IMG/VR virus record: IMGVR_UViG_3300025886_000202
Span: 1-20,302 of that record
From: a virus
Direction: 5' to 3' (one strand)
DNA: 20,302 bases
The notes below the pieces were generated by a model. It searched no databases, was not told where the DNA came from, and saw only the letters and a program-made list of their open reading frames with translations. A program made the translations under genes and the position numbers. How positions within the stretch are numbered: position 1 is the stretch's first letter; each line of letters opens with the position of its first letter. Shown piece after piece: positions 1 through 15,956 of the stretch.

Positions 1-2463
1 GTTGTTTATTGTTGTCCAATCAGTATCCGTATCAAACGTGCCATTCGTCACCAACTCATTACCAACCAAGTCAGTGTCGTCGGTGTCAGACAGGAAGGCA
101 CCCTTGATGTCGCCGTTCATCCAGCCTGTGTTGTATGTGGAGGTGGTGTAGGCGACTTTTTCAGTGTCAAAAAAGGCTAGCCCGTTGATGCCGCCGTGCG
201 TGCCACCATCAAGACCCTTGCCATAATCACTCAATAGCTTCAAGTCAGAAGCATTAGTGGTGCTATTCAAGTATAAAACGGCAGAACCTTTGCTATACCC
301 ATTGCCTTCTGAAATATCAGTGCTTGGTAGGTCAAAAACATGAACGAACCTATTCCGTGTTGCGACCGCATCGTGGGAGACTACAATTTGATTGATGCCG
401 TTGAAAGCTATAATGCCACAGGCTCCATGGTTTGCCCAAGTAATATCATACACAGCACCACTGTCAGTAATAACACTCACGCCACCATCCGTTGCCACTG
501 CAATAGTAGGCACAGGAAGCCCAGTAGCTGCATCAATAGGGGCGTTGGGTAGCACGGTCATGGCGACGTCGTTGACCACGCCGTTTACCAAAGCAACCCC
601 TGCGTCAACAATAGCAACTACAGCATCGTGGTCGTTTCTCAAACTTACTGTAAGGCCAGCTCCTCTTACGCCCGCTACAGAATATCGCTGAACCGTATCT
701 TCAATAAACCGAGCAGCATAGACCCCTGTATAAGTTGTCCCAGACCCCTCAATTCCAAAGCAGAGAACACCATTTTGCATTACTACAGATGTGGCATTTC
801 GGCCCGTGCGCCATATCTCCACCCCAGAACCTACACCAGCATTAAACACCACCCACATCGGCAGACTTGGATCATCACCATCGTAGATCGTGACCTTAGT
901 AGTCTCAGCCACAATCACAGCAACCGCAGGGAACTCACGACGAGAACCACGAGTAGCAGTGTTCAAGGTCTCCTGATACCAGCTTGTGTGCTGGGTGCGC
1001 TTACGCCATGCACCACCGTCACTGTCCTTGCTGGTGTCATACACGAATACGTCTACGGCTGTGACGCCTTTAGTTTCAGCAATAACGTCCAAGTCATAGC
1101 CAGCAATGCCAGCGGCACTAGAGGCGGCAGCGGCGGCGCTTGTTGCAGCATTTGAGCTATATGTTAAGGCATTGGCCTCTGACGTATCAGCATTAGCCTC
1201 AGAGGTGCTTGCAGCAGATGCCGATGCAGCAGCTTCCCCAGCCTTAGTCGTAGCCGTCCCAGCGTCAGTCGATGCAGATGCAGCAGAGCTTGCAGCATTA
1301 GTTTCACTGGTAGCAGCGTTTGTTTCAGCGGTTTCAGCCGCAGTTTGCGCAGCTTCGGCAGCGGTCTGTGCTGTCTCAGCATTGGTCTCTGCGGTCTCAG
1401 CAGCAGCCTGCGCAGCAACACTAGCCACCTTAGATGTTTCACTAGCAGTGGCGCTGTTAGCACTATTGGTGGCGCTAGTAGCGGCATCATTCTTACTGGC
1501 TAAAGCAGATGCAGCATTCGCACTCGCATTCTGAATGTCAGTAATGTTTGTTGCGTTAGTATTGATCGATGCAATGTTTGTTGCGTTTGTATTTACATTA
1601 GCAATGTCTGTCGCAACAGTGTTCACGTTTGTAATAGATGTTGCCACGGTCCCAATGTCAGCACCGTCAGCAGCAACAGTATTAATATTAGACGCATTTC
1701 CAGCAACAGAAGTTACGTTGCCGCTGATACCAGAAACAGTTGTAACATCAGACGATATACCTGCGACAGTACCAATGTCAGATCCATCAGCCGCAACAGT
1801 CGTAACATCAGCGCTAATACCAGCAACCGTGGAGACGTTTCCAGATATGCCCGATACCGTTGTCACATCTGTGCGGATCGTATTGACGTTTGTAATAGCG
1901 TCAGTCGCAACCGTACCGTCCTGGATCTCTGCCAAAGTCTTAATGTCAGCAGAGATATTTGCTAGTGAATCGACATCAGCAATCTCTGGACCTGGCTCTG
2001 GATCACCCGTAGTAGCATTAAACCCAAGAACTGTACCTTTGCGATCATCCTTCAGGGGAAGCTCTAGGTCAGTAAACACATCACCAGGGTTCACAAACAA
2101 ACCACGCCCAAGTTTCTCATCGAGCTGTTGGGTCATAATCACGTTACTGTCTAGCTGTTCGTTTAAGCTAGAAGCCAGAAGATCCCCGGCTGTAACAAAG
2201 TCTGTAGTCCGTGAAAGCTCACGACCACCAATGATTGTAAGAACGTCAGATGCTATGAGGGCAACAGTTAGAGTGATAGATCCCGTTCCATTCGCGTTAA
2301 TACTGACCGTGTAATCAGTGGTAAGCGTTAGCTCCGTAGTCCCCTTGAAGACTGCGATATCACCATCGACCAAGATGTTGAAAGTAAAGGCATATGGACC
2401 GGTTCCGGTATTGCCTGTGAACTGAACCCGGCGGGTTACTGGATTGATTGCGATATCACTCAT
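1..2463 (-). CDS. Tail fibre protein, T7 gp17-like N terminus (partial, 3' end outside window)
   Basis: Adhesin that anchors to the tail and recognises the host surface. The frame is open for 821 codons from the ATG at 2463 and leaves the window without a stop. Residues 1-85 match the T7 tail-fibre N-terminal domain: a MSDIAINPVTRR start, FTFNILVDGD, then a short beta-rich module ending near LTIIGGREL. Residues 181-310 are a decapeptide repeat, and about 355-452 are an alanine-rich heptad repeat, both expected to form a trimeric shaft. From about 455 comes a globular part (VDVFVYDTSKDSDGGAWRKR, then IYDGDDPSLPMW) of a kind I know from marine phage fibres. The last visible residues (LVTNGTFDTDTDW) look like the start of a repeated carbohydrate-binding-type module. 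The AAAGGA upstream is 13 bases from the ATG, a long spacing. It is the last structural gene seen, as in T7. The receptor is unknown. Confidence 0.9.
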   Translation of the reverse strand, partial: MSDIAINPVTRRVQFTGNTGTGPYAFTFNILVDGDIAVFKGTTELTLTTDYTVSINANGTGSITLTVALIASDVLTIIGGRELSRTTDFVTAGDLLASSLNEQLDSNVIMTQQLDEKLGRGLFVNPGDVFTDLELPLKDDRKGTVLGFNATTGDPEPGPEIADVDSLANISADIKTLAEIQDGTVATDAITNVNTIRTDVTTVSGISGNVSTVAGISADVTTVAADGSDIGTVAGISSDVTTVSGISGNVTSVAGNASNINTVAADGADIGTVATSITNVNTVATDIANVNTNATNIASINTNATNITDIQNASANAASALASKNDAATSATNSANSATASETSKVASVAAQAAAETAETNAETAQTAAEAAQTAAETAETNAATSETNAASSAASASTDAGTATTKAGEAAASASAASTSEANADTSEANALTYSSNAATSAAAAASSAAGIAGYDLDVIAETKGVTAVDVFVYDTSKDSDGGAWRKRTQHTSWYQETLNTATRGSRREFPAVAVIVAETTKVTIYDGDDPSLPMWVVFNAGVGSGVEIWRTGRNATSVVMQNGVLCFGIEGSGTTYTGVYAARFIEDTVQRYSVAGVRGAGLTVSLRNDHDAVVAIVDAGVALVNGVVNDVAMTVLPNAPIDAATGLPVPTIAVATDGGVSVITDSGAVYDITWANHGACGIIAFNGINQIVVSHDAVATRNRFVHVFDLPSTDISEGNGYSKGSAVLYLNSTTNASDLKLLSDYGKGLDGGTHGGINGLAFFDTEKVAYTTSTYNTGWMNGDIKGAFLSDTDDTDLVGNELVTNGTFDTDTDWTTINN
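1108..1401 (-). repeat. Fourteen alanine-rich heptad repeats in the fibre shaft
   Basis: Residues 355-452 of the fibre divide into fourteen seven-residue units that each begin with Ala, such as AETAETN, AETAQTA, AATSETN, ADTSEAN and ALTYSSN. Low-complexity Ala/Ser/Thr/Glu heptads of this kind are common in phage fibre shafts and are expected to form a trimeric coiled coil. They link the decapeptide region to the globular distal part. Confidence 0.8.
1534..1923 (-). repeat. Thirteen in-phase decapeptide (30-base) repeats in the fibre shaft
   Basis: Residues 181-310 of the fibre fall into units of exactly ten residues with the pattern xTVAxxxxx(V/I), for example TTVSGISGNV, STVAGISADV and GTVAGISSDV. 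Hydrophobic residues sit at positions 3, 6 and 10, giving 3-4-3 spacing. At DNA level this is a diverged 30-base periodicity. It is a coding repeat in the trimeric shaft and not a CRISPR array. Confidence 0.85.
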
Positions 2464-2481
2464 GTCGTTTTCCCGTTCCTT

Positions 2482-2503
2482 TGTTCACTCTATAGCAGAT
2501 TAA
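2482..2503 (-). promoter_or_regulatory. Possible phage-type promoter before the tail fibre gene
   Basis: The 46-base gap upstream of the fibre reads TTAATCTGCTATAGAGTGAA on the minus strand. The CTATAG core followed by purines resembles the initiation part of T7 and SP6 class promoters, and T7 also has a promoter just before gene 17. The upstream recognition part does not match T7 at the right spacing. CTATAG also occurs by chance inside genes in this window, so this is a weak call based on position. Confidence 0.2.
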
Positions 2504-2509
2504 TTCCAT

Positions 2510-4984
2510 TTACTCAAACACGTTTGACAGCTCTGGGGTTCTTTCGGGAAGGATGTCTCCCTGTGACCACCAGTATTTCTGACCGTATTGCGTTCTATAT
2601 TTGCTTGCGTTTCTACGCATCTTTGTGCGCGTATCAGAATCGACCCACAGTTTGCCCTGGTCAATAACCAATCTTTCAAGCCCAAGTCGTGCATACCATA
2701 AGCTAGATCCAGGGGTATATCGTCCGGCAAATCCTAGAAACTCACTAGCAGCATTACTGTCTTTACCTTGTGCGGCCTGTAGTATGTTGCCTACTGTTAG
2801 CTGAGAAACATCGTTTGCAAATCCTACTACGGGACCGGCAATGGTTTCAGCCAAACCGCCACCATACCTATTGACACTGCCAAACATAAAGTCGCCATAG
2901 ATACCGAGGCCACCACCCTGCATGAAAGCAGCGCCCCAAAACTCAGCGGTATTCATTGGCCGTGGGTCTCTACCCTTTGCCATTTCCTTTAGCTGCATCG
3001 CAAGAGCGCCCATAAGCGTTGTGCTTATCATTAGATCTGCAAAGTAAGCACCCTTCCCTCTGCCGGTAGGCTGGGCCAAGCCGCGCATGATGTGTGTATT
3101 TACCAGGGTAACACCAAAATTCTTATACATTGCAAAGGACCGTGTAAGCTCACCGGCTAATGTCCCAGGTTTGGCATCACCTGTGATCGCCACACGCCCA
3201 CGGAGAGAGCTACTAGGGACAGCAAAGTTAGTTTCTGTGTCAATCATTACAGATAGGTTTGTTGCTAAATCACGGGCCAGCTCTGGGTTTATATCGGTGC
3301 GAGCCTCGATGTCTTCAGCCCTTATGAACTTAGCCCCTTCGTAATCATACAAAGGCGTCTTCCGAATGATCTCCCACTTATCAGCCCCAATATTATAATG
3401 CTCCATGCTTTTCTGCATATTTGCAGGAAGATCCTTAAACTGTAAATTAACATTGTCAGCTAAGAATCCGAGGTACTCCATACCGAAAGACCATCTACCC
3501 GCCTGCGTCCACGGAGAAAGCAATGAAGCTCTCATAACAAAATCAGATATGCGCCTGGTAACTTCTGGCCCTGATATCTCCCCTACATACCGCATTTGCC
3601 CAGCAGCTAAGGTGGACCAGCCTTCAGCAGTAAGACCTAACCTAATTGCTGCGCGGCCCTTTTCCTCAAGAGAAAGCGGGTTCATAAACTCTAAATACTT
3701 TGAAATCATCTTAGTTTGGGGAAGGCCATTCATTGTCCTGGCTATCCGCCCAAAATTAGTATCGGTTATAGCGGCAATAGCTGCGCTACCAAGCTGGGCA
3801 GAGTGCAGAACATTCCTTGTGCCAGCCATAGTTGTCGCCAATACGCCGTCCACCGGTGCATTGTTTGTCCCTACCGTGGCTGAATACAGATCATCGAGAA
3901 ACGCATTTGCTTTTGATGCACTATTAATCTGCTTTGCGTCACCAGATAGACTGGCTTCCTTCGTAAGGGTGTCTTTCATAAATCGCAAAGTGGTCTTTGG
4001 ATCTGGACCCATCACCTCCATCAACGCAATGTCTCTGGACATATTATCGATATGGGCCATCATAACATCGAAAGCATTGGGATTTCCAAACGCCTCTTGG
4101 TACTTCATCCAGTTGTCAGCATCTTTAAATACAAGGAAGCGATGGTCCTGATGTCGTGAAGCAAAAGATTGATTGCCGGCAAAGCTCCCAGGTTTGTTTT
4201 TATTCTGACCGTTTGTCCGTATCGTTTCAAAAACATCCTCCAAAACAAGCTCAAGCTTTTGCTTAGAAAATGGCAGTCCCGTTTGCTCATCAATCATTTT
4301 ATTAACATCAAGCTTTGGAAGGATCGTATCTCGCCACGAAGTAAATCCAGCAGCAGCAACCGCAACAGAGTTATGGAATTGAGGCATACCCCAATCCTTG
4401 CGTTTCGGTATAGCACCACCAGCAGCGTTAAACCTTAACCTTAAATATTCAGCAGCTTCGGCCCAAGCTTCAGCCATTTGTCGCGCCGAAATATCATCGG
4501 TCGATCCTGGCTTGAATATCTCACTGATAACATTTTCTAACCTTGCCTTTTCCCGAGTCTCGCCAATAATGTTTCTTTTAAATGTTCCAAGAAACTGATC
4601 CATTTTTGCTGTGGCTCTGGATCGGACTGCGCTTTGCACCTGGGCGACACTGTTAAAACGAGATGTTACAGATTGCTCAAAAACATCAAACGTAGCTTTG
4701 TATTTATTTTGTTCGCCTGTAACAGCCGTTACGAATGTATCCATGTGCATTCGTATTTTTGTCCAGGTCTTAGCCTGTAACATTGCGCGGCGCTTCTTTT
4801 CCTTAGACATTTTCTTTATAGCCGCAGATGTATCTAAAGCAGCCTTAGAGCTGGCAGCAGCAAAACCCATTTGCTTGTTATACTGAACCTCAAGATCCCC
4901 AAAAAGGGTTTTGATCTCTTCAGCCTTTTCAGAAGAAAGCTCACCGGCAGCAACACCATCGTCAATACATTTTCTAAAACTCAT
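2510..4984 (-). CDS. Large internal virion protein, probable distal half of the gp16-type ejection protein
   Basis: An 824-residue protein whose ATG overlaps the stop of the preceding gene (ATGA, 4981-4984), so translation is probably coupled. It is mostly helical with many small residues. Residues 689-699 (QGGGLGIYGDF) and 758-772 (PGSSLWYARLGLERL), plus the C terminus at 791-824 (RNASKYRTQYGQKYWW, then ILPERTP), fit a C-terminal pattern I know from very large internal proteins of podoviruses and prophages. Residues about 655-675 are hydrophobic (STTLMGALAMQL). In T7 the cognate position is held by a single 1318-residue gp16, which leaves the head with the DNA and forms part of the channel through the envelope. 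Here that role seems shared with the 1305-residue neighbour. No enzymatic motif is visible. The family call is by context and C-terminal pattern. Confidence 0.65.
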   Translation of the reverse strand: MSFRKCIDDGVAAGELSSEKAEEIKTLFGDLEVQYNKQMGFAAASSKAALDTSAAIKKMSKEKKRRAMLQAKTWTKIRMHMDTFVTAVTGEQNKYKATFDVFEQSVTSRFNSVAQVQSAVRSRATAKMDQFLGTFKRNIIGETREKARLENVISEIFKPGSTDDISARQMAEAWAEAAEYLRLRFNAAGGAIPKRKDWGMPQFHNSVAVAAAGFTSWRDTILPKLDVNKMIDEQTGLPFSKQKLELVLEDVFETIRTNGQNKNKPGSFAGNQSFASRHQDHRFLVFKDADNWMKYQEAFGNPNAFDVMMAHIDNMSRDIALMEVMGPDPKTTLRFMKDTLTKEASLSGDAKQINSASKANAFLDDLYSATVGTNNAPVDGVLATTMAGTRNVLHSAQLGSAAIAAITDTNFGRIARTMNGLPQTKMISKYLEFMNPLSLEEKGRAAIRLGLTAEGWSTLAAGQMRYVGEISGPEVTRRISDFVMRASLLSPWTQAGRWSFGMEYLGFLADNVNLQFKDLPANMQKSMEHYNIGADKWEIIRKTPLYDYEGAKFIRAEDIEARTDINPELARDLATNLSVMIDTETNFAVPSSSLRGRVAITGDAKPGTLAGELTRSFAMYKNFGVTLVNTHIMRGLAQPTGRGKGAYFADLMISTTLMGALAMQLKEMAKGRDPRPMNTAEFWGAAFMQGGGLGIYGDFMFGSVNRYGGGLAETIAGPVVGFANDVSQLTVGNILQAAQGKDSNAASEFLGFAGRYTPGSSLWYARLGLERLVIDQGKLWVDSDTRTKMRRNASKYRTQYGQKYWWSQGDILPERTPELSNVFE

Positions 4985-7900
4985 ATCGTACAGAACTCCA
5001 ACCGTTTCATTACAGCGTCTTCTTCATCCATCATGGCACGAAGGTCTTTTATAGGCATTGAAACAGCCTCAAGCTCATTAGTATCTGGATTGAGCCTTTG
5101 ACCTACAGGAACTTCAAGATCCATATTGACATTTGCCGAAGCGATATCTAAATTGGAATCGGAGGTATCATCCATGAAATTATTTAGGTTCGACTTCGGC
5201 TCTATTGCAGCCATCGAAGGTCCACTTGGCATGATCTGGGATACAGAGGACGGTTGGTCTCCTGTAGGTGGTTCCAAGGAACTAGCTCGCGCTGTAGTAA
5301 CAGACGAAGGCTCTGAAGAAATCCCAGAGGACAAAGTTGAGTCTACACTGCTGGCGCGTGGCGCTCCTATCCCAAGCTTTTGAGCAAATGATTGGTCTAG
5401 CGTAGACGTAACAGCCCCATAGATCTCTATCATTTTTTGATTAGCGTCTGCTATTTCAACATCAGTTGAGTCTACACTTCTTAATATTTCATAGTAATCG
5501 TGACCAGATTTTTCAAAAAGTGTTGGATTTTCTTTTGCGTTGAGCATTCCAGGAGGCCAGATTTGAATTTCTCCTAATGACTTATCATCAAAGATAACCA
5601 TTATTTTTCTGTCAACGTATCCAGCCGGAGTAATTTTCCATCCCTCATCTACAAGATGAAATTTCTTAGACATGGCTTTAACAAAAGCGTCTGCCTCTTC
5701 TATAGTTGCTGCATTGATGCCAGTTCTGGCCGCATCAGTTAATCTGTTATATTTTCCGTTGTATTTGTCTCTAACTTTTTCTTCTATTCGTTTGAGTTTT
5801 TTGACCTTTGCTGGTTCAAATTCGATCCCCAAATCAGCAGCAGCTTGAGCCGCTGCTTTGTTCAGAGTTTCGTTGTTCTTTTTGGCTTTGCGGAATAACC
5901 CTAAACCCGTCTTAAACCTTTGACGTTCCAATAGTTTTTGAACAAAAATGTCAGCCTCATCTTGCCCAAGAGTCTCTGCAACGACATAGCGCATTTTATT
6001 TTTACCAAGCGCGTCTTGGTTTAGAATGCGATCTGCCGCTTTGCGAGATAACTCAGAAGCGTACTGAGCATCATCAATTATTTTGCCAGGCACTTCAGAC
6101 CAGCCTGCAGCTTTTGCAATTGAGTATGTAGAATTGCCATCTCGAACTGAGAAAGTTCCGTCACCATTATCTCTAAGAAGTAATGACCCGCGTTTTGGTA
6201 TTTCATTGTTTGCAGATTGAACCATGTAGCCAAGAGAGTTTACAACCCCTTTAGCCCTTACATTGACCGGAACAATGTCTTTCATAGCAACAAGAGTGTC
6301 GCCAGCTTCCATAGCCATATATGGTTGCCAATCTGGCTGGATCTTATCTTGCACCTCCTGAAGCGCGGATTGCATTTCAAGATCTGCCTGCGCCACCGCT
6401 GCTGGTGGCGTATCCACCTCATCAGCACCAAACATATCCGTTATAAGCTGACCGGTCTGTTGATCCGAGGCTGGCCCTGTAGGCTCATCAAATCCGTCTA
6501 GGATTGGCTCTTCAATTGAAGGTCGCGTGACCTCCGCTGTACCATCGATGCCGCGTCCAATGTCGCCAGCAGATATGCTTTGGAAATCGCCTGCGTCAAT
6601 TGATCGTCTGACAGCATCAAGGAATCCGTTTGTGGCTGGGCCATAGCTTCCTGTGTCCCTTGCTGTCTTTGCTGCATCATTGAGGGCGTCCGAGAGCGGC
6701 CCTTTGCGGTTTGCAAGCGCTTGGAGGAGCGTGATCGTTTGGGCATCTGTAGCCGCCTTTCTTTGATTTGCATCAGCCGCAAGGATGTTTCCTTCAGCCT
6801 CTAACCTTTCAGCGTTTCTTACAAGTGTTTCAAACGCAGCTTTATCTCTGCGCAACTCTTTATAAGCTCTGTCCAGAATTTTACCACGCTCGAAATAATA
6901 ACTCTCTGTCATTAGCTCTTCGCCAAACAAAGATATTTGAGTTACTTGCTCCGAAGGGGTTTCTTTTACCTGGCGAACTATAGCCTCAGCTTGGAATTTG
7001 TTTTCTGGGTTAGCTTTGGCAAGCACACTCATTGCTGCGTCTTGCAAGTCCTGATCGTCAATTAACCTACCTACAAATGCCGCATACTTAGCCGGTACAA
7101 CCCCGTTTACAACCATGCCAAATGAATTGTCACTTAAAGGCATTATGCCTCTAGCTTGCTGCACAAGCTCTGAATTTGGTGGCAAATCTGGAAGCCTAGA
7201 AGGATCTACACGCAAGACCTTTGCAGCATCAATTGCTGTACCGCTTCCCTCTACTATGTTTTTCAAAGCAGCGACCACGCGCATTTCTTCTGGCGTGATA
7301 CCGTCTACTTCTCTAAATGTGTATGCGTGTAGACTGATATCCTGAGACGGATCTTGAGCCATAATACGTTTAGCTAGTCCAAGGCGTTGGTGTCCATCTG
7401 CAATAACCTTTCGACCATCTGCATATTCATAAACACTAACAGTGCCAGCCCAATATGGGTTGAATGTCTGGACCCCTTGCAATCTTGCAGTAACGCCAAA
7501 CTCATCACCCTCTGCTTTGAATTGGAATGTTTCTGCATCAACGCCAATCTCAGAAGCCTTCACCATAGATATAAGGTTTACACCTTCAAGATTATTAACA
7601 TCCGCTACAACAGGGGAAGTCTTAGCCGCCTGTTTTTGTTTGTCTAAAATCTTTCCACGCTGTTTGCCTAGTCCATCTTGTATAGATTGTAACTCCTCAA
7701 CTTTAGACTGATTTAGTTTATTTTCAGATATTATATCTTTTATTATCTTACTGTCCTTTGTAAGACTTGGATCAGCATCATAAGCATCATTTAACCGATT
7801 TTGAATTTCAAGACCTTCTGCTTCAGCCGTTTTTAATTTGGCATTGTTTGCTTCCCATTTTTTATCCAATGCGTTTAATTCATCTCGTAATGGATCAACA

Positions 7901-8898
7901 GATTTTAAAGGCAATGGAGCATCTGGAGACATAGCCGGTGGCTGTGCATTGGCCGCAGCAGCACCAGCTTCAACTAACCTTTGGTTATGAACGTATTGAG
8001 CTTCATTAGGTGTGGCTGATTGAAGTGGGTTTTCTATCTCTTCAAACTCTTCAGCTTCTAATAGTGCCGCAGCCATTTCACGATTTTCTAATGTGCCGCG
8101 CTGGTTGTTGCCAGTTAGAGCTAAGTACCCTCTCCTTAATTGATTAGCTGTTAGTTTTACGCCAGCACCAGCAAGGGGGAGAGCTGCACCCAAGGCAGCG
8201 TTTTCAGAAACATTACGCACAAAGTCAGAAAACTCATAATCAACGTCAAGCTCATCATACCATTCTTTAACTGCAATCTCAGAAAAAGCACCAGCTCCAC
8301 CATTTAAAACAGCAGAGTTAAATAGTTGCCGCCACATGGTTCTGCCAATGGCAACAGCGCCCTCCAGCATCATAGCTTGCTGAGTAACTGGATCGCTAAA
8401 TGATGCAACCATGCCACCTAAGAATCTAGCAACAGCATATTTAAACTCAGGATTATCATCGGCAAGTCTTTGCATCTCTGCGCGAGATCTTGTAAATAAT
8501 TCCTTAGTTTGGTTTTGAATAAAATTTTCATTTACCTGGTTTAAATCAGGCGGTAGATCATATTGGTTCTGCCTGATGGTAGAGAAGATCTTTTCAATCG
8601 CATTATTGTAAGCCGTTTCAGACTTATACTGTCCAGTAGTCGGCGCAGATATTAGATATCGAGCAGGGTTAGTCCATCTCTCGCCGTTATTTAGAAACTC
8701 AGTTTCATTAAGCGATTCAATTATAGGATCCCAAACTTCTTGCTTGGCAAAAGCAGGGGAATTAGCGCCAGCACTGTCATTTATAAAACCTAAGTCCTTA
8801 GTCTTTACAAAATTCTCAGCCCATGTAGCAGCAGGAGCTGACATCTTCCTTCTTGGGTCAGAATTTAAAAACTTTATATCTGCTTTTCCAAGGTTCAT
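4981..8898 (-). CDS. Giant internal virion protein (gp16 position) with ParB-like and RelA/SpoT-like domains
   Basis: A 1305-residue protein, ATGA-overlapped at both ends with the gp15-like gene and the 824-residue gene, so it belongs to the ejection-protein set. Residues 1-260 form a helical N-terminal region with Gly/Ala-rich stretches (VASFSDPV, ALPLAGAGV). Residues about 330-425 are predicted coiled coil by composition. Residues about 445-575 look like a ParB/DdrB-type domain: GVQTFNPYW, then KVIADGHQRLGLAKR (497-511), then NIVEGSGTAIDAAKVLR (547-563). A helical segment follows at about 660-765. Residues about 1035-1145 carry RelA/SpoT-like signatures: RLTDAARTG, GYVD, GEIQIWPPGM and GHDYYEILRS. 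Residues 1180-1240 are a Ser/Pro-rich linker. No lytic transglycosylase motif is visible, unlike T7 gp16. Internal virion protein status is inferred from gene order. Domain calls are by motif and could be degenerate folds. Confidence 0.75.
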   Translation of the reverse strand: MNLGKADIKFLNSDPRRKMSAPAATWAENFVKTKDLGFINDSAGANSPAFAKQEVWDPIIESLNETEFLNNGERWTNPARYLISAPTTGQYKSETAYNNAIEKIFSTIRQNQYDLPPDLNQVNENFIQNQTKELFTRSRAEMQRLADDNPEFKYAVARFLGGMVASFSDPVTQQAMMLEGAVAIGRTMWRQLFNSAVLNGGAGAFSEIAVKEWYDELDVDYEFSDFVRNVSENAALGAALPLAGAGVKLTANQLRRGYLALTGNNQRGTLENREMAAALLEAEEFEEIENPLQSATPNEAQYVHNQRLVEAGAAAANAQPPAMSPDAPLPLKSVDPLRDELNALDKKWEANNAKLKTAEAEGLEIQNRLNDAYDADPSLTKDSKIIKDIISENKLNQSKVEELQSIQDGLGKQRGKILDKQKQAAKTSPVVADVNNLEGVNLISMVKASEIGVDAETFQFKAEGDEFGVTARLQGVQTFNPYWAGTVSVYEYADGRKVIADGHQRLGLAKRIMAQDPSQDISLHAYTFREVDGITPEEMRVVAALKNIVEGSGTAIDAAKVLRVDPSRLPDLPPNSELVQQARGIMPLSDNSFGMVVNGVVPAKYAAFVGRLIDDQDLQDAAMSVLAKANPENKFQAEAIVRQVKETPSEQVTQISLFGEELMTESYYFERGKILDRAYKELRRDKAAFETLVRNAERLEAEGNILAADANQRKAATDAQTITLLQALANRKGPLSDALNDAAKTARDTGSYGPATNGFLDAVRRSIDAGDFQSISAGDIGRGIDGTAEVTRPSIEEPILDGFDEPTGPASDQQTGQLITDMFGADEVDTPPAAVAQADLEMQSALQEVQDKIQPDWQPYMAMEAGDTLVAMKDIVPVNVRAKGVVNSLGYMVQSANNEIPKRGSLLLRDNGDGTFSVRDGNSTYSIAKAAGWSEVPGKIIDDAQYASELSRKAADRILNQDALGKNKMRYVVAETLGQDEADIFVQKLLERQRFKTGLGLFRKAKKNNETLNKAAAQAAADLGIEFEPAKVKKLKRIEEKVRDKYNGKYNRLTDAARTGINAATIEEADAFVKAMSKKFHLVDEGWKITPAGYVDRKIMVIFDDKSLGEIQIWPPGMLNAKENPTLFEKSGHDYYEILRSVDSTDVEIADANQKMIEIYGAVTSTLDQSFAQKLGIGAPRASSVDSTLSSGISSEPSSVTTARASSLEPPTGDQPSSVSQIMPSGPSMAAIEPKSNLNNFMDDTSDSNLDIASANVNMDLEVPVGQRLNPDTNELEAVSMPIKDLRAMMDEEDAVMKRLEFCTI

Positions 8899-11534
8899 TT
8901 AAAATCTTTCTCCACAGTCCTTAGCTCTTCCACGGAAACTTTTTCTGAATCAAACGCACGTTTAATAAAGGCGCTAAGGTATTTGTGTTCGGTTGTTCCC
9001 GGATCAAATTGTTCCCGTACCTCAATTAATCTAGTTTGGATCGCCTCTCTTTCATCAAGCTCACTTACAGCCGCAGCACCAGCAGCCGGGGCTTCAGATA
9101 CAGCTTCAGCAACGTCTGATACGGTTTCTGCAAGAGATGTTGTCGCAGATACGATAGTCGATGGTATTACACCGATGCCTGGGGCAGCCATTTTCTCCAG
9201 CAATGTTTCTGGAATAATTCCTTGACCCACATCCTTCTGAGCATCAAACGCATCTTTCTGATCCTGCGTATAATAAACCGGACCACGGGCGGCAGTAAGT
9301 TCAATTACCTTTTTTAGGTCAAAAACAAACATGTCCCCATTGTCATCGTTAATGAAGTCACCACTGTCTTTATACATAAATCCGTAGTTGTTACCTCCCA
9401 AAGAGACAAGATTGTAATCTCCAGAAGTACCCTCGCTTTTTATTACCTGATATATTTTAGCTCCAGGATCAACTAGAGACAACTCGATCTCACCTGACAA
9501 AGCCTCAAACATCTCAGGAGCTACATTTTGATAAACGATCTCCCCATCTACCTCAAATCCCGAGGCTTGCGAAAGTATATCTGCGTCCATTTCTGTCAAA
9601 GCATTTGACACATCAAGAGCAGTATTCCCGCTAGGAATAAGGGTTGAAACAGACCTTACTGTATCGATACCACCCGTTCCATTCTCAGGATTAAATCCAA
9701 CAGCCTGGTTTAAAGAATTTCTCCAAAGTTCTTCATTGAACTCAGTAGCGCCTTCCGCATAAAAAGCATACAGATTTTCAGCCATTGCTCTGTAAGCCGG
9801 TACAGCATCCAGGGTTTCACCGAATACAGATCTAAAGACCGCATTTGAAATTGAATCTGCGTCCGGCATATCCTTGTCTGATGTCAGCTTAGGCTTACCC
9901 ATTGCCTCAATAATAGCTTGGCCCTGTAGCGCACGGGTGGCAACATCTCTGTTTCCAGAAACCATTGAAGCCCCTACGGCAGCATAAAACGCTCCATCTG
10001 TACCGGCCAGCTCTTCAAAGGCTTGAAGCGCGATAGTATCCCCACTGGCAACAACAGATTCCAAAGCAATCAACCTATCGTTTATAGACGCAGATTTAAG
10101 AACATTAGAGAACAATTTGGTTTCCTCTTTAGTAAATAAAGTAAGAGGTGTCCCATATGCTTTAGAGACTAGCTTCGCCTGGTCAAACCTTAAACTAAGA
10201 TCTGCGACCACAGCATTTGGATCTTGGTTAAAGTCAATTGGCTTAATTTGGATTAAGTTATTATTATCATCGGTAAGTTGCCTTTTAACAGCAGCGGAAA
10301 TCGGATTGTCGTTTATGTCTTTATTAAACTGATCCAACATTTTAACAGCAAAATCATACGTTTTGACTTCTACATCCGTGTCCCGACCAGGCTCACCAAC
10401 GCCAGGAAGACCAGCTTCCATTGAGGTAACAAAACTAGCTAAATCAGCAGGCATCATGGCTTTGAGATTATTAGCAGTATCAATATCAAAAATCATGCGC
10501 TCATAAGCAGCTCTTGCTCTATCGCCTTCTGGCCCAAAAGCATCAAGTTGAGCTTCTATCTGTGTTAGCATTTTCTGAGAAACGACACCCCCAGCAATAG
10601 CAATATCATCTTGCTCACTAATCAATGAAACAACATTTGAAACTTTTTGCTCTCTAATCGCTGCGTTTTTGCTGTATGTTCCCTGGAGGCTTTTTCTAAA
10701 AGATTGCGTTTCTGCTAAAGTCATACCGGGGGCCGGAACTGTCTCCATTCTTTTTAAGATTGTTTCTTGCTTTTCAACCGGAGAAGAATTGAAATTAAAT
10801 ATGTAGTTTTCTTTTATAGCGTCATTGTAAGCTTTAGTTTCAAAAGCTTTGAGCTGTTTTTCCGAAAGTGATAAGCCGCCTAAAAGCTCAACAGATTTAG
10901 CAATTTGTTGTTTGATCGTTACAGCGTTTGAACCTGGAAGGATCGCGTTCTCGATAATATTGTTATATTGCAGATCCGCCGCGTTAGCTGCCTTCACCTT
11001 TTGCTTTTGAGCTTGTACGTTTACATACCAATTTGAATATCTTTCTGTTGCCTTGGCTGTTACGCCGTTTAGGTTTTCTCTCAAAACGGTTGCAGCAGTC
11101 GGATCAATTACTCTCAGCGATTCTGAGTAACCGTCAGTAAGTTCTAATAGTTGTGCTTGAACTTTCGTAAATGGAGTTTCATCCCTTTCGGCTTCATTCA
11201 AAATCCGCATTGTTTCAATTTCAGCGGTATTTTGTATTTCGGCTACAGCAACACGACTTCCAAGTGCATATGCTGCACGTTCTGCTATTGTAGTAGGTCC
11301 ACCGGCTTCATCTAATGCGGCCAGGGTAGGCAAAGCACCTTCTTCGCGCACACGCTCCTGCCCACGGATTTCCGCTGCCTGAGAAGCCTGCCTGAAAGCA
11401 AAGTCGGACATACGATCAACTTGCTGAGAAATAGTCTGGCCCAACCTTGCCTGTTCGCGCGTAGCGGCAAAATCCATCTGCTGTGGTTGACGGGTCTGTA
11501 GACCGGTGCGCTGATATCTTGGAAGGATTGCCAT
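8895..11534 (-). CDS. Internal virion protein, gp15-like
   Basis: An 879-residue, largely helical protein; T7 gp15 is 747 residues. In T7, gp15 joins gp14 and gp16 in the internal core and is ejected to build the periplasmic part of the DNA channel. The N terminus (MAILPRYQRTGLQ, then Gln/Arg/Ala-rich helices such as QARLGQTISQQVDR) and long charged helices are typical of this class. Residues 788-830 form an Ala/Ser/Glu-rich linker (SLAETVSDVAEAVSEAPAAG) before a final helical piece. I see no catalytic motif. The start lies 8 bases after the stop of the gp14-like gene, with AGGTTAGAAC before the ATG. The end overlaps the next ATG by four bases. The assignment rests on position, length and composition, because gp15 sequences diverge strongly. 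Confidence 0.7.
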   Translation of the reverse strand: MAILPRYQRTGLQTRQPQQMDFAATREQARLGQTISQQVDRMSDFAFRQASQAAEIRGQERVREEGALPTLAALDEAGGPTTIAERAAYALGSRVAVAEIQNTAEIETMRILNEAERDETPFTKVQAQLLELTDGYSESLRVIDPTAATVLRENLNGVTAKATERYSNWYVNVQAQKQKVKAANAADLQYNNIIENAILPGSNAVTIKQQIAKSVELLGGLSLSEKQLKAFETKAYNDAIKENYIFNFNSSPVEKQETILKRMETVPAPGMTLAETQSFRKSLQGTYSKNAAIREQKVSNVVSLISEQDDIAIAGGVVSQKMLTQIEAQLDAFGPEGDRARAAYERMIFDIDTANNLKAMMPADLASFVTSMEAGLPGVGEPGRDTDVEVKTYDFAVKMLDQFNKDINDNPISAAVKRQLTDDNNNLIQIKPIDFNQDPNAVVADLSLRFDQAKLVSKAYGTPLTLFTKEETKLFSNVLKSASINDRLIALESVVASGDTIALQAFEELAGTDGAFYAAVGASMVSGNRDVATRALQGQAIIEAMGKPKLTSDKDMPDADSISNAVFRSVFGETLDAVPAYRAMAENLYAFYAEGATEFNEELWRNSLNQAVGFNPENGTGGIDTVRSVSTLIPSGNTALDVSNALTEMDADILSQASGFEVDGEIVYQNVAPEMFEALSGEIELSLVDPGAKIYQVIKSEGTSGDYNLVSLGGNNYGFMYKDSGDFINDDNGDMFVFDLKKVIELTAARGPVYYTQDQKDAFDAQKDVGQGIIPETLLEKMAAPGIGVIPSTIVSATTSLAETVSDVAEAVSEAPAAGAAAVSELDEREAIQTRLIEVREQFDPGTTEHKYLSAFIKRAFDSEKVSVEELRTVEKDFK

Positions 11535-11999: not shown

Positions 12000-14198
12000 T
12001 CAATTCCCCACGCTTAAACGGTACTCAAGACCGAGAACAATCATTTCCAATGGAACATTTTGACTAATCGTAATCTGCCCCGTTCCGCTATATCCCAGCA
12101 AACCGTGCATAGTTTTTATGCCAGTGAAAGGCTCAACCGGTGAATCAAGTACATCCTCGCCAAAGTTCCTAAACGAGACCTGCTTGCCGTTAATCGTCAT
12201 ATCCTTCGTGCTGTTCACAATAGCATCAACCTGGATAATACGTTTCTTAAAGCCCTGCACAGATCCAGAAGACAGCACCGGCTCCGCAGGCATCGTTCTA
12301 GCCGTGATTGTGTAATTCAAACCAACCTGGTAGCTAGACGTAGCTGCCGAAGCAAACGTAACCGTGTAGGGAGAGCCAGGGACCGTCTGCTCTGGCTCTA
12401 GAACGCCATCTCTAATGATCTGGACTGTCTCCCCCTCAAGATGCTGTAACGTCACTGAGGACGCCGCTCCGCCCTCCTTAGCGCTATCTAGCGTAAGATC
12501 TGGGTCAAACTTCTCCAGCATATAGTTGTCAGTGCCATCAATGGTCCGTTTAACGATCACATAAACATCTGCAACCTCAACGCCCACAGCTATAAACTCA
12601 CCGTCTGTTGTAAACCGGCTTGGGGCAATAACATTCTGACCGACCAGGATAGAGTAAACCGCCATCGATCCGTCAGTACCGTTAACCACAAACAGGCGAT
12701 CCGATTCATCTGTAGACGCAGCCCTACGCGCCGCCATGTCCACAGGATCTTTTAGCAAGTGAGAGCTTAGAGCTGATATGTTCTGTACCTGATAGGATGC
12801 TGTAGTATCGCCAAACTGGAAGACGTTAATAGATTTACCCTGGCGCTGAATAAAGATTGACGCGCCGTTCAGCTCTTCTATTGGAATACCAGACTTTGAT
12901 CCAAGCCGTGTCTGTGGCCGTACAAAGAAAGACGAAGGAGTAATTGGCTCATTGGTCCCTTGTAAGATTACAAACTCACCACCGGTTGTGAAGATCCGAA
13001 AGTCGTTGCCAGAGAACAAGTTGACGATAGTATTGAGCTGATTAGTGTTGATTGTTGCCTCAACGCTCTCATCGTCAAGTCCAGTACCGGCGTTGAAATC
13101 AAAGTAATTGATTACACCAGAACCCCAGATGGTATTTGGCCGAGACTTAGATCCACCAAAATACAACCGGCCCTCATGGAATGCAGCAGACCGAGGCCAG
13201 CCGCGAGTGTTTGACCAAACATCCTCATAGCCATGCTCACTCTCCCATAAACCAGCGGTAATGGCGTCCGTGTCAAAGAAGTCCACTTCCGTGACAGCCT
13301 TCATAACTGTAGGCGATACATATTCAACATATCGAGCGCGGCCAAATGTGCTTGTGACTTGGGCGTATTCACCAACGGCAGAGGGAGCAAAAGCCTCCAC
13401 CTTGTAACCCGTGGTATTATCGGGAGCCGTATCCCATGCGGGATAGACAGTCAGCACCTTAGTAGAGGCCACATAGTCCTCAACGTGCCTAGTCTGACCG
13501 GAGCCTGTGCCGGAAGTTAATGTAATGAACATACCATTTGGCTGATCGTCAGTGCTGTAACTAGACGCCGCCTTCAAGGTAATTGTATTCGCTCCACCCG
13601 CTTGGGCCGTACCGTTGTCAGTAGTCATTGACGAAGCTGTGATCGTAATGTTTCCAGTTGTGGCGCTGGGCGTGATCGTAAAGTCTGGCTGATGCGTGTC
13701 AAAGGCATAAGCATACTGAGGAAGATTTGTCAGAGGCAAGTTCTCTAGCGTCCAGCTTGTGTCACTGTTGCGCACAAGCCTCTTTGTCTGAAGATCCTCA
13801 TGGCAGAGAATGAGCGTATCAACCGCCTGGGTATAGTTAATGTTGTCCAGCATAGCGGTAGTGATATCGGTTGCTGTAATATAGTCATTACCAGATCCGT
13901 TAATATTCGTCTGCAAGACACCAGCCTTGAAGACATAAATCCTCTGAGTGACAAATACCAACAGGTAACTATCATCAACGCTAAACTCAAAGGGGATTAC
14001 CTTGAAGTCAGTAAAACTTGATCCAAAGTCATAGATAAACTTCGTACCATCCCGGCGCTTAAAGCCCCCTTGAGGCTGAATGATTACATTCGTAGCTTCC
14101 TCAAGAGCGTTCTGATATTGCTGCAAGTCGGTACGAGCGCGGATAAGCGGATCAAGCTCACCAACCGAGAAGTTCGTTTGGAACTGCATAATCCGCAT
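12000..14198 (-). CDS. Tail tubular protein B (nozzle), gp12-like
   Basis: A 732-residue protein (T7 gp12 is 794) that forms the nozzle at the tip of the short tail. The N terminus has the family signature: FSVGELDPLIRARTDLQQYQ (residues 10-29), then GGFKRRDGTKF. The central part has further hallmarks: GWPRSAAFHEGRLYFGGSKS (333-352), then FTTGGEFVILQG and RLGSKSGIPI. These belong to the beta-propeller-type core. Residues about 188-270 hold what looks like an inserted beta domain (ANTITLKAAS, LTSGTGSGQTR, then WDTAPDNTTGY), a module I know mainly from fibre-type phage proteins. The first ATG (MRIMQF) is one base after the tail tubular A stop, and an internal ATG three codons later could also serve. 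Assignment by family signature is strong. Confidence 0.92.
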   Translation of the reverse strand: MRIMQFQTNFSVGELDPLIRARTDLQQYQNALEEATNVIIQPQGGFKRRDGTKFIYDFGSSFTDFKVIPFEFSVDDSYLLVFVTQRIYVFKAGVLQTNINGSGNDYITATDITTAMLDNINYTQAVDTLILCHEDLQTKRLVRNSDTSWTLENLPLTNLPQYAYAFDTHQPDFTITPSATTGNITITASSMTTDNGTAQAGGANTITLKAASSYSTDDQPNGMFITLTSGTGSGQTRHVEDYVASTKVLTVYPAWDTAPDNTTGYKVEAFAPSAVGEYAQVTSTFGRARYVEYVSPTVMKAVTEVDFFDTDAITAGLWESEHGYEDVWSNTRGWPRSAAFHEGRLYFGGSKSRPNTIWGSGVINYFDFNAGTGLDDESVEATINTNQLNTIVNLFSGNDFRIFTTGGEFVILQGTNEPITPSSFFVRPQTRLGSKSGIPIEELNGASIFIQRQGKSINVFQFGDTTASYQVQNISALSSHLLKDPVDMAARRAASTDESDRLFVVNGTDGSMAVYSILVGQNVIAPSRFTTDGEFIAVGVEVADVYVIVKRTIDGTDNYMLEKFDPDLTLDSAKEGGAASSVTLQHLEGETVQIIRDGVLEPEQTVPGSPYTVTFASAATSSYQVGLNYTITARTMPAEPVLSSGSVQGFKKRIIQVDAIVNSTKDMTINGKQVSFRNFGEDVLDSPVEPFTGIKTMHGLLGYSGTGQITISQNVPLEMIVLGLEYRLSVGN

Positions 14199-15110: not shown

Positions 15111-15122
15111 GTCTTATTCTCC

Positions 15123-15956
15123 TTATTCAGTGCAAGAAATTTTGACAATGCCTTCGCCGTCAATTGAGACGGAACCAGCAGAGAACATGGAGCTAACCAA
15201 GAACGATGTCTTTTCTGGGACATAGTTGACTTCGGTTTTCTGAGCCATCGACTCAGCATAGCCCATCGAATCTTTGTGCCAGGCAAAGCAAGTACGAGTA
15301 GAAGGCTTAGGAATACCGCCTTCGTCACGGTCGCCCATTGTCAAGATGTTGAAGCCCATGAATGTGTTGATCTCACCTTGGACAAGAGCTTTGACAGAAG
15401 CAAAGTCTTGGCTTGTGATTTCAGTTTCACCGAGCAAAGCATCTAGCTGAGAAGCGTGCATGAGCAAGTTACGGCCTTCAGAAGGTACGTTCTTCTCATT
15501 CATAGCTTTCGCAGTAGCGCGGAGCTTTTCGATGTTCATGTTTGTGCCAGCACCACCGATTGTTGTTGCAACAGTAGATGTGCCAGTGGCCGCGTTCAGA
15601 GCATCGATCATGATCTGGTCCATGCGACGAGCAATAGACTTAGATACAACCTGTACCAATTCAGAACGCTCATCAAAGTTGATGTGGGACTGTTGGAAGA
15701 TGTCTGAGTATTCTGCTGCAATGTAGTCTTCCATTGTCGCAGTTACTTGGCCGTATGTGACGTTAAGTGGAGTAACATCGGTTTGTGGTACGCGGAGCGT
15801 GGCTACACCTTTACCGATTGTTGGGAACTTAACAGTATTACCGGCAACGCCGGTGCGGGTCCGCATTGTGCCACGAAGCACAGATTCGGCTTGATACGCT
15901 TGTTTGACCTCAGAATCGAAAAGATCAACAAACGCGGTTGAGACGTTAATCGCCAT
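15123..15956 (-). CDS. Major capsid protein (HK97-fold)
   Basis: A 277-residue shell protein. The frame is open upstream to a TTG at 15983. I chose the ATG at 15956 because GGAGG lies nine bases before it and the product then begins MAINVSTAFVDLFDSEVK, a typical start for this capsid family. Features seen include YQAESVLRGTMRTRTG (21-36), a VTPLNVTYGQVTATMEDY stretch (61-78), HINFDERSELV, and the helix ARRMDQIMIDALNAATG (109-125) followed by Gly-rich strands. These resemble capsid proteins of the Bordetella phage BPP-1 (Bbp17) kind more than T7 gp10. The neighbours (scaffold upstream, decoration protein downstream) agree. The strong ribosome site and structured leader suggest heavy expression. 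A cysteine near the end (ISCTE) is present. Confidence 0.9.
   Translation of the reverse strand: MAINVSTAFVDLFDSEVKQAYQAESVLRGTMRTRTGVAGNTVKFPTIGKGVATLRVPQTDVTPLNVTYGQVTATMEDYIAAEYSDIFQQSHINFDERSELVQVVSKSIARRMDQIMIDALNAATGTSTVATTIGGAGTNMNIEKLRATAKAMNEKNVPSEGRNLLMHASQLDALLGETEITSQDFASVKALVQGEINTFMGFNILTMGDRDEGGIPKPSTRTCFAWHKDSMGYAESMAQKTEVNYVPEKTSFLVSSMFSAGSVSIDGEGIVKISCTE

Follow-up and report, generated by a model that had tools for sequence, protein, structure and literature searches.

A RelA/SpoT-type synthetase domain as exchangeable cargo in a protein of a podoviral ejection locus

Why should a phage encode a domain of the alarmone synthetase type inside a large protein of its virion operon, and could that domain act on a host cell as infection begins? 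The question arises from IMG/VR record IMGVR_UViG_3300025886_000202, which was analysed over its whole length of 20,302 nt (hereafter, the window) and in which a first-pass annotation, made from the sequence, had noticed a RelA/SpoT-like nucleotidyltransferase signature.

The virion operon and the carrier gene

This 20.3-kb virus record comes from a short-tailed marine phage and contains a single operon of virion genes, on the minus strand. The operon encodes portal, capsid, tail tubular proteins A and B, proteins of 151 and 879 aa, a 1305-aa protein that contains the domain (the carrier), an 824-aa protein and a tail fibre; the labels for portal, capsid, tube A and fibre are our own reading of gene order and sequence. 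The features used below are as follows.

12000..14198, minus strand: tail tubular protein B, upstream of the carrier in the same virion operon
8895..11534, minus strand: internal virion/head protein of 879 aa, upstream of the carrier (phrog_992, E 1.8e-17)
4981..8898, minus strand: carrier gene, 1305 aa, an ORF syntenic with the epsilon15/phiV10 ejection-protein locus
7609..8898, minus strand: residues 1-430, the N-terminal region of the carrier, conserved among carriers
6499..7578, minus strand: conserved core, residues 441-800 (phrog_10691, E 1.9e-64), putatively ParB/Srx-like by the motif DGHQR
5182..6411, minus strand: cassette slot, residues ~830-1239, a variable segment that is replaced in near-identical carriers
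5359..5901, minus strand: SYNTH domain (RelA/SpoT-homologue, RSH, nucleotide pyrophosphokinase fold), residues 1000-1180, from profile, model and structure matches
4981..5166, minus strand: conserved C-terminal tail, residues 1245-1305, ending in RLEFCTI and kept with any cargo or none
2510..4984, minus strand: virion structural protein of 824 aa, downstream of the carrier (phrog_684, E 1.7e-175)

The N-terminal region of the carrier matches protein DVVG_00008 of Dunaliella viridis virus SI2 (E 2.5e-33). The core has no match in Pfam and appears ParB-like only by its DGHQR motif and PHROG match. With this putative ParB-like core and the SYNTH domain, the carrier combines several effector-type domains in one polypeptide beside virion genes, as is typical of phage polyvalent proteins.

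A divergent RSH synthetase domain

The RelA/SpoT-like signature had been placed at positions 5464-5796, residues ~1035-1145, where all five motifs quoted for it are indeed found in the order given. The numbering of D1055 and E1110 is exact, and R1058, Y1094 and Q1112 also occupy the expected sites; the full domain, however, is wider than the signature, extending over residues ~1000-1180 (5359-5901).

A single-sequence search of PDB returned Tas1 as its sole match, at E 0.067 and aligned across most of the segment. Tas1 was found at 1.2e-7 with a profile of 10 viral homologues and, as Tas1/Apk1, at 7.9e-20 with a diverse 16-member profile, which matched only three further proteins, two streptococcal GTP pyrophosphokinases (0.002 and 0.003) and SaEAS, an exported synthetase (0.25). 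Bacterial genomes searched with the family profile yielded one Tas1-like protein and several secreted proteins of ~250-260 aa, which appear, from their length, leader and motifs, to be of the Vibrio RelV type. The profile search with PF04607 that the first-pass annotation had proposed failed to detect the domain: neither the window nor its SYNTH domain reached the curated cut-off, and the domain matched none of the Pfam models. Among the 16 family members PF04607 gave one weak match (0.015), and its cut-off was passed by one phage relative and two slot relatives. The phage relative above the PF04607 cut-off is a Bordetella phage protein with 29% identity, which adjoins a portal gene and weakly matches RelSeq. 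Bordetella phage PHB04 (L010:7077-9342) has an RSH-type protein beside its portal gene and, two genes further, a second protein annotated as a bifunctional (p)ppGpp synthetase/hydrolase. Because it falls below PF04607 detection, the window domain is filed here under the RSH SYNTH superfamily, of which it is a member closest to the Apk1/RelV-type synthetases and with an acceptor motif of its own.

An AlphaFold model of the domain based on a diverse alignment (pLDDT 90.1, pTM 0.85) superseded a mediocre earlier model from ten close sequences (pLDDT 72). The predicted fold has the antiparallel central sheet and flanking helices of RSH SYNTH domains. When PDB was searched with the model using Foldseek, ranks 1-44 were all RSH enzymes, with Tas1 first (5e-8). 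By VIA-align, Tas1 (6ox6) scored Z 14.8 (3.2 A over 164 residues) and Bacillus subtilis SAS1 Z 14.6; B. subtilis SAS2 and SaEAS, like SAS1, lie within 1 Z unit of Tas1, and CapRel and FaRel2 are also among the matches, at the lower values of Z 12.0 and 6.8. In this structure comparison, likewise proposed beforehand, the top matches were all alarmone synthetases. The nucleotidyltransferase fold suggested from the signature is borne out by profile, predicted structure and conservation.

Active-site conservation and the acceptor motif

Conservation was assessed in 39 SYNTH members less than 80% identical to one another, with the following outcome for the key residues.

5734..5736, minus strand: D1055, predicted metal-binding Asp, equivalent to SaEAS D121 (39/39 invariant; Tas1 alignment)
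5725..5727, minus strand: R1058, equivalent to Apk1 R330 (39/39 invariant)
5605..5613, minus strand: D1096-x-K1098, predicted acceptor (syn3) motif, specific to the subfamily and replacing SxH or GxN (D, 39/39; K, 39/39)
5569..5571, minus strand: E1110, equivalent to Apk1 E382 (39/39 invariant)
5563..5565, minus strand: Q1112, second residue of E-x-Q (38/39)

The domain thus retains the catalytic D, R and E-x-Q of the RSH SYNTH superfamily. Loss of the conserved D or E in close homologues, which would have told against the first-pass reading, is not seen among these members, and a change of D121 inactivates SaEAS (PMC12691689). Lysines 1033 and 1041 in the N-terminal part of the domain are likewise invariant (39/39), against a mean column conservation of 49%. 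Pairwise dN/dS of the SYNTH domain was 0.03-0.25 in 10 of the 11 computable pairs, the exception (1.6) being the near-identical pair of the window and L012, which is too close to inform. The SYNTH cargo is under purifying selection.

The syn3 acceptor motif is SxH in enzymes that use guanosine and GxN in those that use adenosine (PMC12226406). Neither the S-x-H of guanosine 3'-pyrophosphokinases of the RelA/Rel type nor the G-x-N of the Apk adenosine 3'-pyrophosphokinases occurs in the 39 members, all of which have D-x-K; RelV-type proteins carry D-x-N at this site. Because D-x-K matches neither SxH nor GxN, the product is not readable from the sequence, and for the same reason the motif selects neither the ppGpp-like nor the tRNA option that the first-pass annotation had offered.

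The cassette slot and its cargo

A search with the core alone (residues ~442-800), which involved no selection for cargo, returned 71 viral loci. Their slots contain a domain of the SYNTH family (22 loci), a zeta-toxin-type kinase (20), no cargo (16), an RSH-like domain with E retained and Q lost (4) or a canonical-looking RSH domain (4); in the other 5 a contig end cuts the slot. By Pfam, the kinase is Zeta_toxin (PF06414, E 4.6e-20 to 1.8e-34), and the RSH domain of canonical appearance is PF04607 (7.3e-14 and 2.0e-11). Profile comparison linked the RSH-like (probability 95%) and canonical RSH (probability 85%) domains to the SYNTH family and found no such link for the zeta-type kinase. The slot family of L014, L015 and L041 retains the E of E-x-Q and has lost the Q.

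On a tree of 70 cores, the cargo has changed at least 19 times. The window, L013 and L014 have cores ~99% alike and three different cargoes. L019, with a kinase, and L020, with a SYNTH domain, are 97.9% identical over 7137 nt ahead of the slot and 95.9% identical over 3415 nt behind it, with no alignable sequence in between; comparison of the empty carriers L031/L057 with L091 (SYNTH) reveals a clean insertion of ~695 nt. The DNA breakpoints of the slot are clean, at reverse-complement positions 13884-13889 and 15122-15127, and its boundary motifs, QLITDMFGADE and DLEVPVGQR, are conserved. The SYNTH domain is a swappable cargo between the putatively ParB-like core and the C-terminal tail. A conserved carrier with a variable effector exchanged by recombination is a trait of polymorphic toxins; the effector does not occupy the extreme C terminus as in those proteins, since a conserved tail of ~60 aa lies behind the slot in filled and empty carriers alike.

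Gene order and delivery

The gene after the carrier is that of phrog_684 in nearly all relatives, and the tail tube genes lie ahead wherever the locus extends that far. Phage phiV10 has the same order: internal virion proteins p16 and p17, then p18 (phrog_992-like), p19 and p20 (phrog_684-like). As with podoviral ejection proteins, the carrier gene is clustered with those for internal virion proteins and has tail tube genes on one side and fibre genes on the other, and the ejection proteins of epsilon15 have been placed in such a cluster (review, PMC8954989). The carrier has no detectable sequence similarity to its syntenic counterpart phiV10p19, so its ejection role is read from synteny, from which we infer that it is packed in the virion and ejected with the DNA. 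The gene order is T7-like in outline, yet the nearest described virion proteins are from other podoviruses, namely those of the epsilon15/phiV10 type and of Vibrio and Pelagibacter. We know of no protein of this SYNTH family, characterized by GYxDxK, that has been assayed or detected in virions.

Hosts and neighbouring genes

A first scan of bacterial genomes with patterns of the window subfamily found no loci. With patterns of the prophage subfamily, 13 loci were found, 12 in records named as Alphaproteobacteria and one in an unclassified Proteobacteria MAG; the bacterial copies lie in Pleomorphomonas, Ancylobacter, Bradyrhizobium, Pseudovibrio, Salipiger, Methylobacterium, Palleronia, Mesorhizobium, Roseobacter, Rhodoblastus and Seohaeicola. 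Given these genera, the phage hosts are likely to be alphaproteobacterial. In a survey of 289 genomes of the class the seed itself was the sole match, so the domain is rare in chromosomes. Six inspected bacterial loci look like prophages in which the next gene encodes a structural protein; in one of them (L141) a 90-aa ORF separates the carrier from that gene.

No obvious immunity gene adjoins the carrier; in the window and in nearly all relatives checked, the next gene is that of phrog_684, and Pfam finds no PAAR or MuF N-terminal delivery domain in the carrier. HD_4-like ORFs occur in 4 of 48 records, all four SYNTH-bearing, which is too few to claim an association. These small ORFs (frames of 147-170 aa) resemble HD_4 alarmone hydrolases and lie in the four phage records L159 (G010 C1 9600-11000), L161, L162 and L163; none was found in the other-cargo records tested, though the numbers are small.

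Proposed function and alternatives

The reading that we favour, and consider probable, is that the domain is a virion-delivered RSH SYNTH nucleotide pyrophosphokinase, a replaceable cargo of a podoviral ejection-locus protein, that perturbs the host at entry. Family membership, the conserved active site, purifying selection, exchange of cassettes and gene order are observed; virion location, ejection, activity, product and benefit are what the proposal adds. The carrier would be packed in the virion core and expelled alongside the DNA; packaging and translocation would be the task of its conserved parts. Once in the host cytoplasm, the cargo would use ATP to pyrophosphorylate a nucleotide or some other acceptor with a 2'/3'-hydroxyl, and the outcome might be slower host growth or a diversion of ATP and nucleotide pools while the DNA arrives. 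Related enzymes have published rates of ~1e5 per minute (PMC12691689); a simple calculation from such rates, assuming a few copies in each virion, suggests that the ATP of a small marine cell could be affected within minutes. Because relatives place other RSH domains or a zeta-type kinase in the same position, the slot may hold whichever metabolic effector is currently useful. Against this reading stand the D-x-K motif, unlike that of either characterized class, and the lack of detectable similarity between the carrier and phiV10p19. A highly toxic activity also sits uneasily with the lack of an adjoining immunity or hydrolase gene and, in most records, of HD_4, and survival of the producing cell would then need another explanation: the enzyme may be inactive until ejection, weak, or made late, or an HD_4-like hydrolase may protect the cell in a few phages. 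A broader and rather doubtful proposal is that the GYxDxK family forms a new RSH class that yields something other than (p)ppGpp or (p)ppApp, or acts on another acceptor, and that podoviruses use the ejection protein as a general vehicle for exchangeable effectors, delivering metabolic enzymes together with their DNA.

With the same fold and delivery, the acceptor could instead be the tRNA 3' end, as in FaRel2/CapRel, in which case translation would be stopped and no alarmone made. D-x-K is unlike the acceptor motifs of the nucleotide-specific classes, the structural matches include CapRel and FaRel2, and three lysines in the N-terminal part of the subfamily are nearly or fully invariant; yet the closest protein in both sequence and structure is Apk1/Tas1, which makes pppApp from ATP, while CapRel (Z 12.0) and FaRel2 (Z 6.8) rank lower, and we regard tRNA as an unlikely acceptor. 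It is also improbable that the enzyme acts late in the producing cell, in host shutdown or superinfection exclusion, with packaging incidental or absent. Such a role would suit a gene of the virion operon, presumably expressed late, whose product is placed in the virion by inference, and the possible hydrolases (small HD_4-like proteins) of a few SYNTH-bearing phage records; it does not account for the fusion of the domain to a protein syntenic with ejection proteins, kept with a conserved tail, when a free enzyme would serve better.

The idea that the domain lacks catalysis and is a structural or DNA-binding module of the ejectosome is very improbable. The empty slots of some relatives, and the slot family that has kept E without the Q of E-x-Q (L014, L015, L041), could be taken in its favour, but full invariance of the active site at ~30% identity and purifying selection are not expected of such a module, and the replacements are unrelated enzymes (the zeta-type kinase) rather than other structural modules. 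Nearly all carriers come from metagenomic contigs, which invites the suspicion that the diversity of cargo is an artefact of chimeric assembly. This is scarcely credible because separate samples yielded each type of cargo with the same junctions (for example L018/L019, L020/L021, L024/L025, L037/L038, L031/L057); furthermore, open frames and conserved tails are found throughout, and the SYNTH domain is also present in prophage-like regions of cultured Alphaproteobacteria.

Comparison with known systems

The best match in sequence and structure, with D, R, E and Q aligned, is Apk1/Tas1 (PDB 6OX6), a (p)ppApp synthetase and T6SS effector. It has a GxN syn3 motif, a PAAR delivery domain and an immunity gene, whereas the window protein has D-x-K, a carrier of the podoviral ejection type and no adjacent immunity gene. 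Another phage SYNTH domain fused to a virion-associated protein is found in Apk2 of temperate phages, an active (p)ppApp synthetase fused to MuF (PMC12226406); there, the partner is the MuF minor head protein, the immunity genes iapK and aph1 are present and the motifs are GxN and RYT, while here the carrier and motifs are different and the cargo is internal. The exported synthetases RelV/VpEAS, of which RelV makes (p)ppGpp, and SaEAS (PMC12691689) are stand-alone secreted proteins with signal peptides. RelV-like proteins were found with the family profile and share GY-x-D with it, as GYRDLN in contrast to GYxDxK here. The epsilon15/phiV10 ejection loci have the same order of tail, small internal virion, phrog_992, variable large and phrog_684 proteins, but the variable protein of phiV10 (p19, 600 aa) is without cargo and has no detectable similarity to the carrier.

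The polyvalent phage proteins of Iyer et al. (2017, PMC5512222) are likewise multidomain, combine ParB-like with RelA/SpoT or zeta-like domains and were predicted to act at entry. In the available text of that paper, RelA/SpoT domains are described from spirochaete and epsilonproteobacterial prophages and from MuF fusions, and the zeta-like kinase from conjugative elements and MuF; a single exchangeable slot in a podoviral ejection protein does not appear in that text. The presence of RelA/SpoT and zeta-like domains in phage proteins of the polyvalent or MuF kind had already been proposed there (PMC5512222). Our searches of the open-access literature turned up no account of an ejection protein with a cargo slot, and, as far as these searches reach, the carrier type, the internal exchangeable slot common to RSH and zeta cargo, and the D-x-K subfamily are new.

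If the cargo is active, these phages bring an enzyme of growth control into the cell ahead of their own gene expression. Alarmone-type effectors, found in secretion systems, in toxin-antitoxin pairs and as MuF toxins, would then have a further setting in the podoviral ejection locus. Carriers that are almost the same apart from their cargo (three RSH types, a zeta kinase or none) offer a clean comparison of ejected-effector function, and the natural cargo set is a source of new RSH specificities.

Several loci depart from the usual arrangement. The window cassette has an extra segment ahead of the SYNTH domain (5902-6411, minus strand; residues ~830-999), absent from shorter SYNTH cassettes such as those of L013 and L020. 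In L022 (carrier residue 821), whose core is near-identical to those of L020/L021, the SYNTH cargo is terminated by a stop after ~77 residues, owing either to a broken cargo or to a sequencing error. A Pseudovibrio contig (L139:4737-11507) encodes a 2257-aa protein with two SYNTH domains in tandem, and in the 1467-aa carrier of L114 (ORF 1859-6259) the module order is reversed, with the SYNTH domain (715-882) ahead of the ParB-like core (1013-1342).
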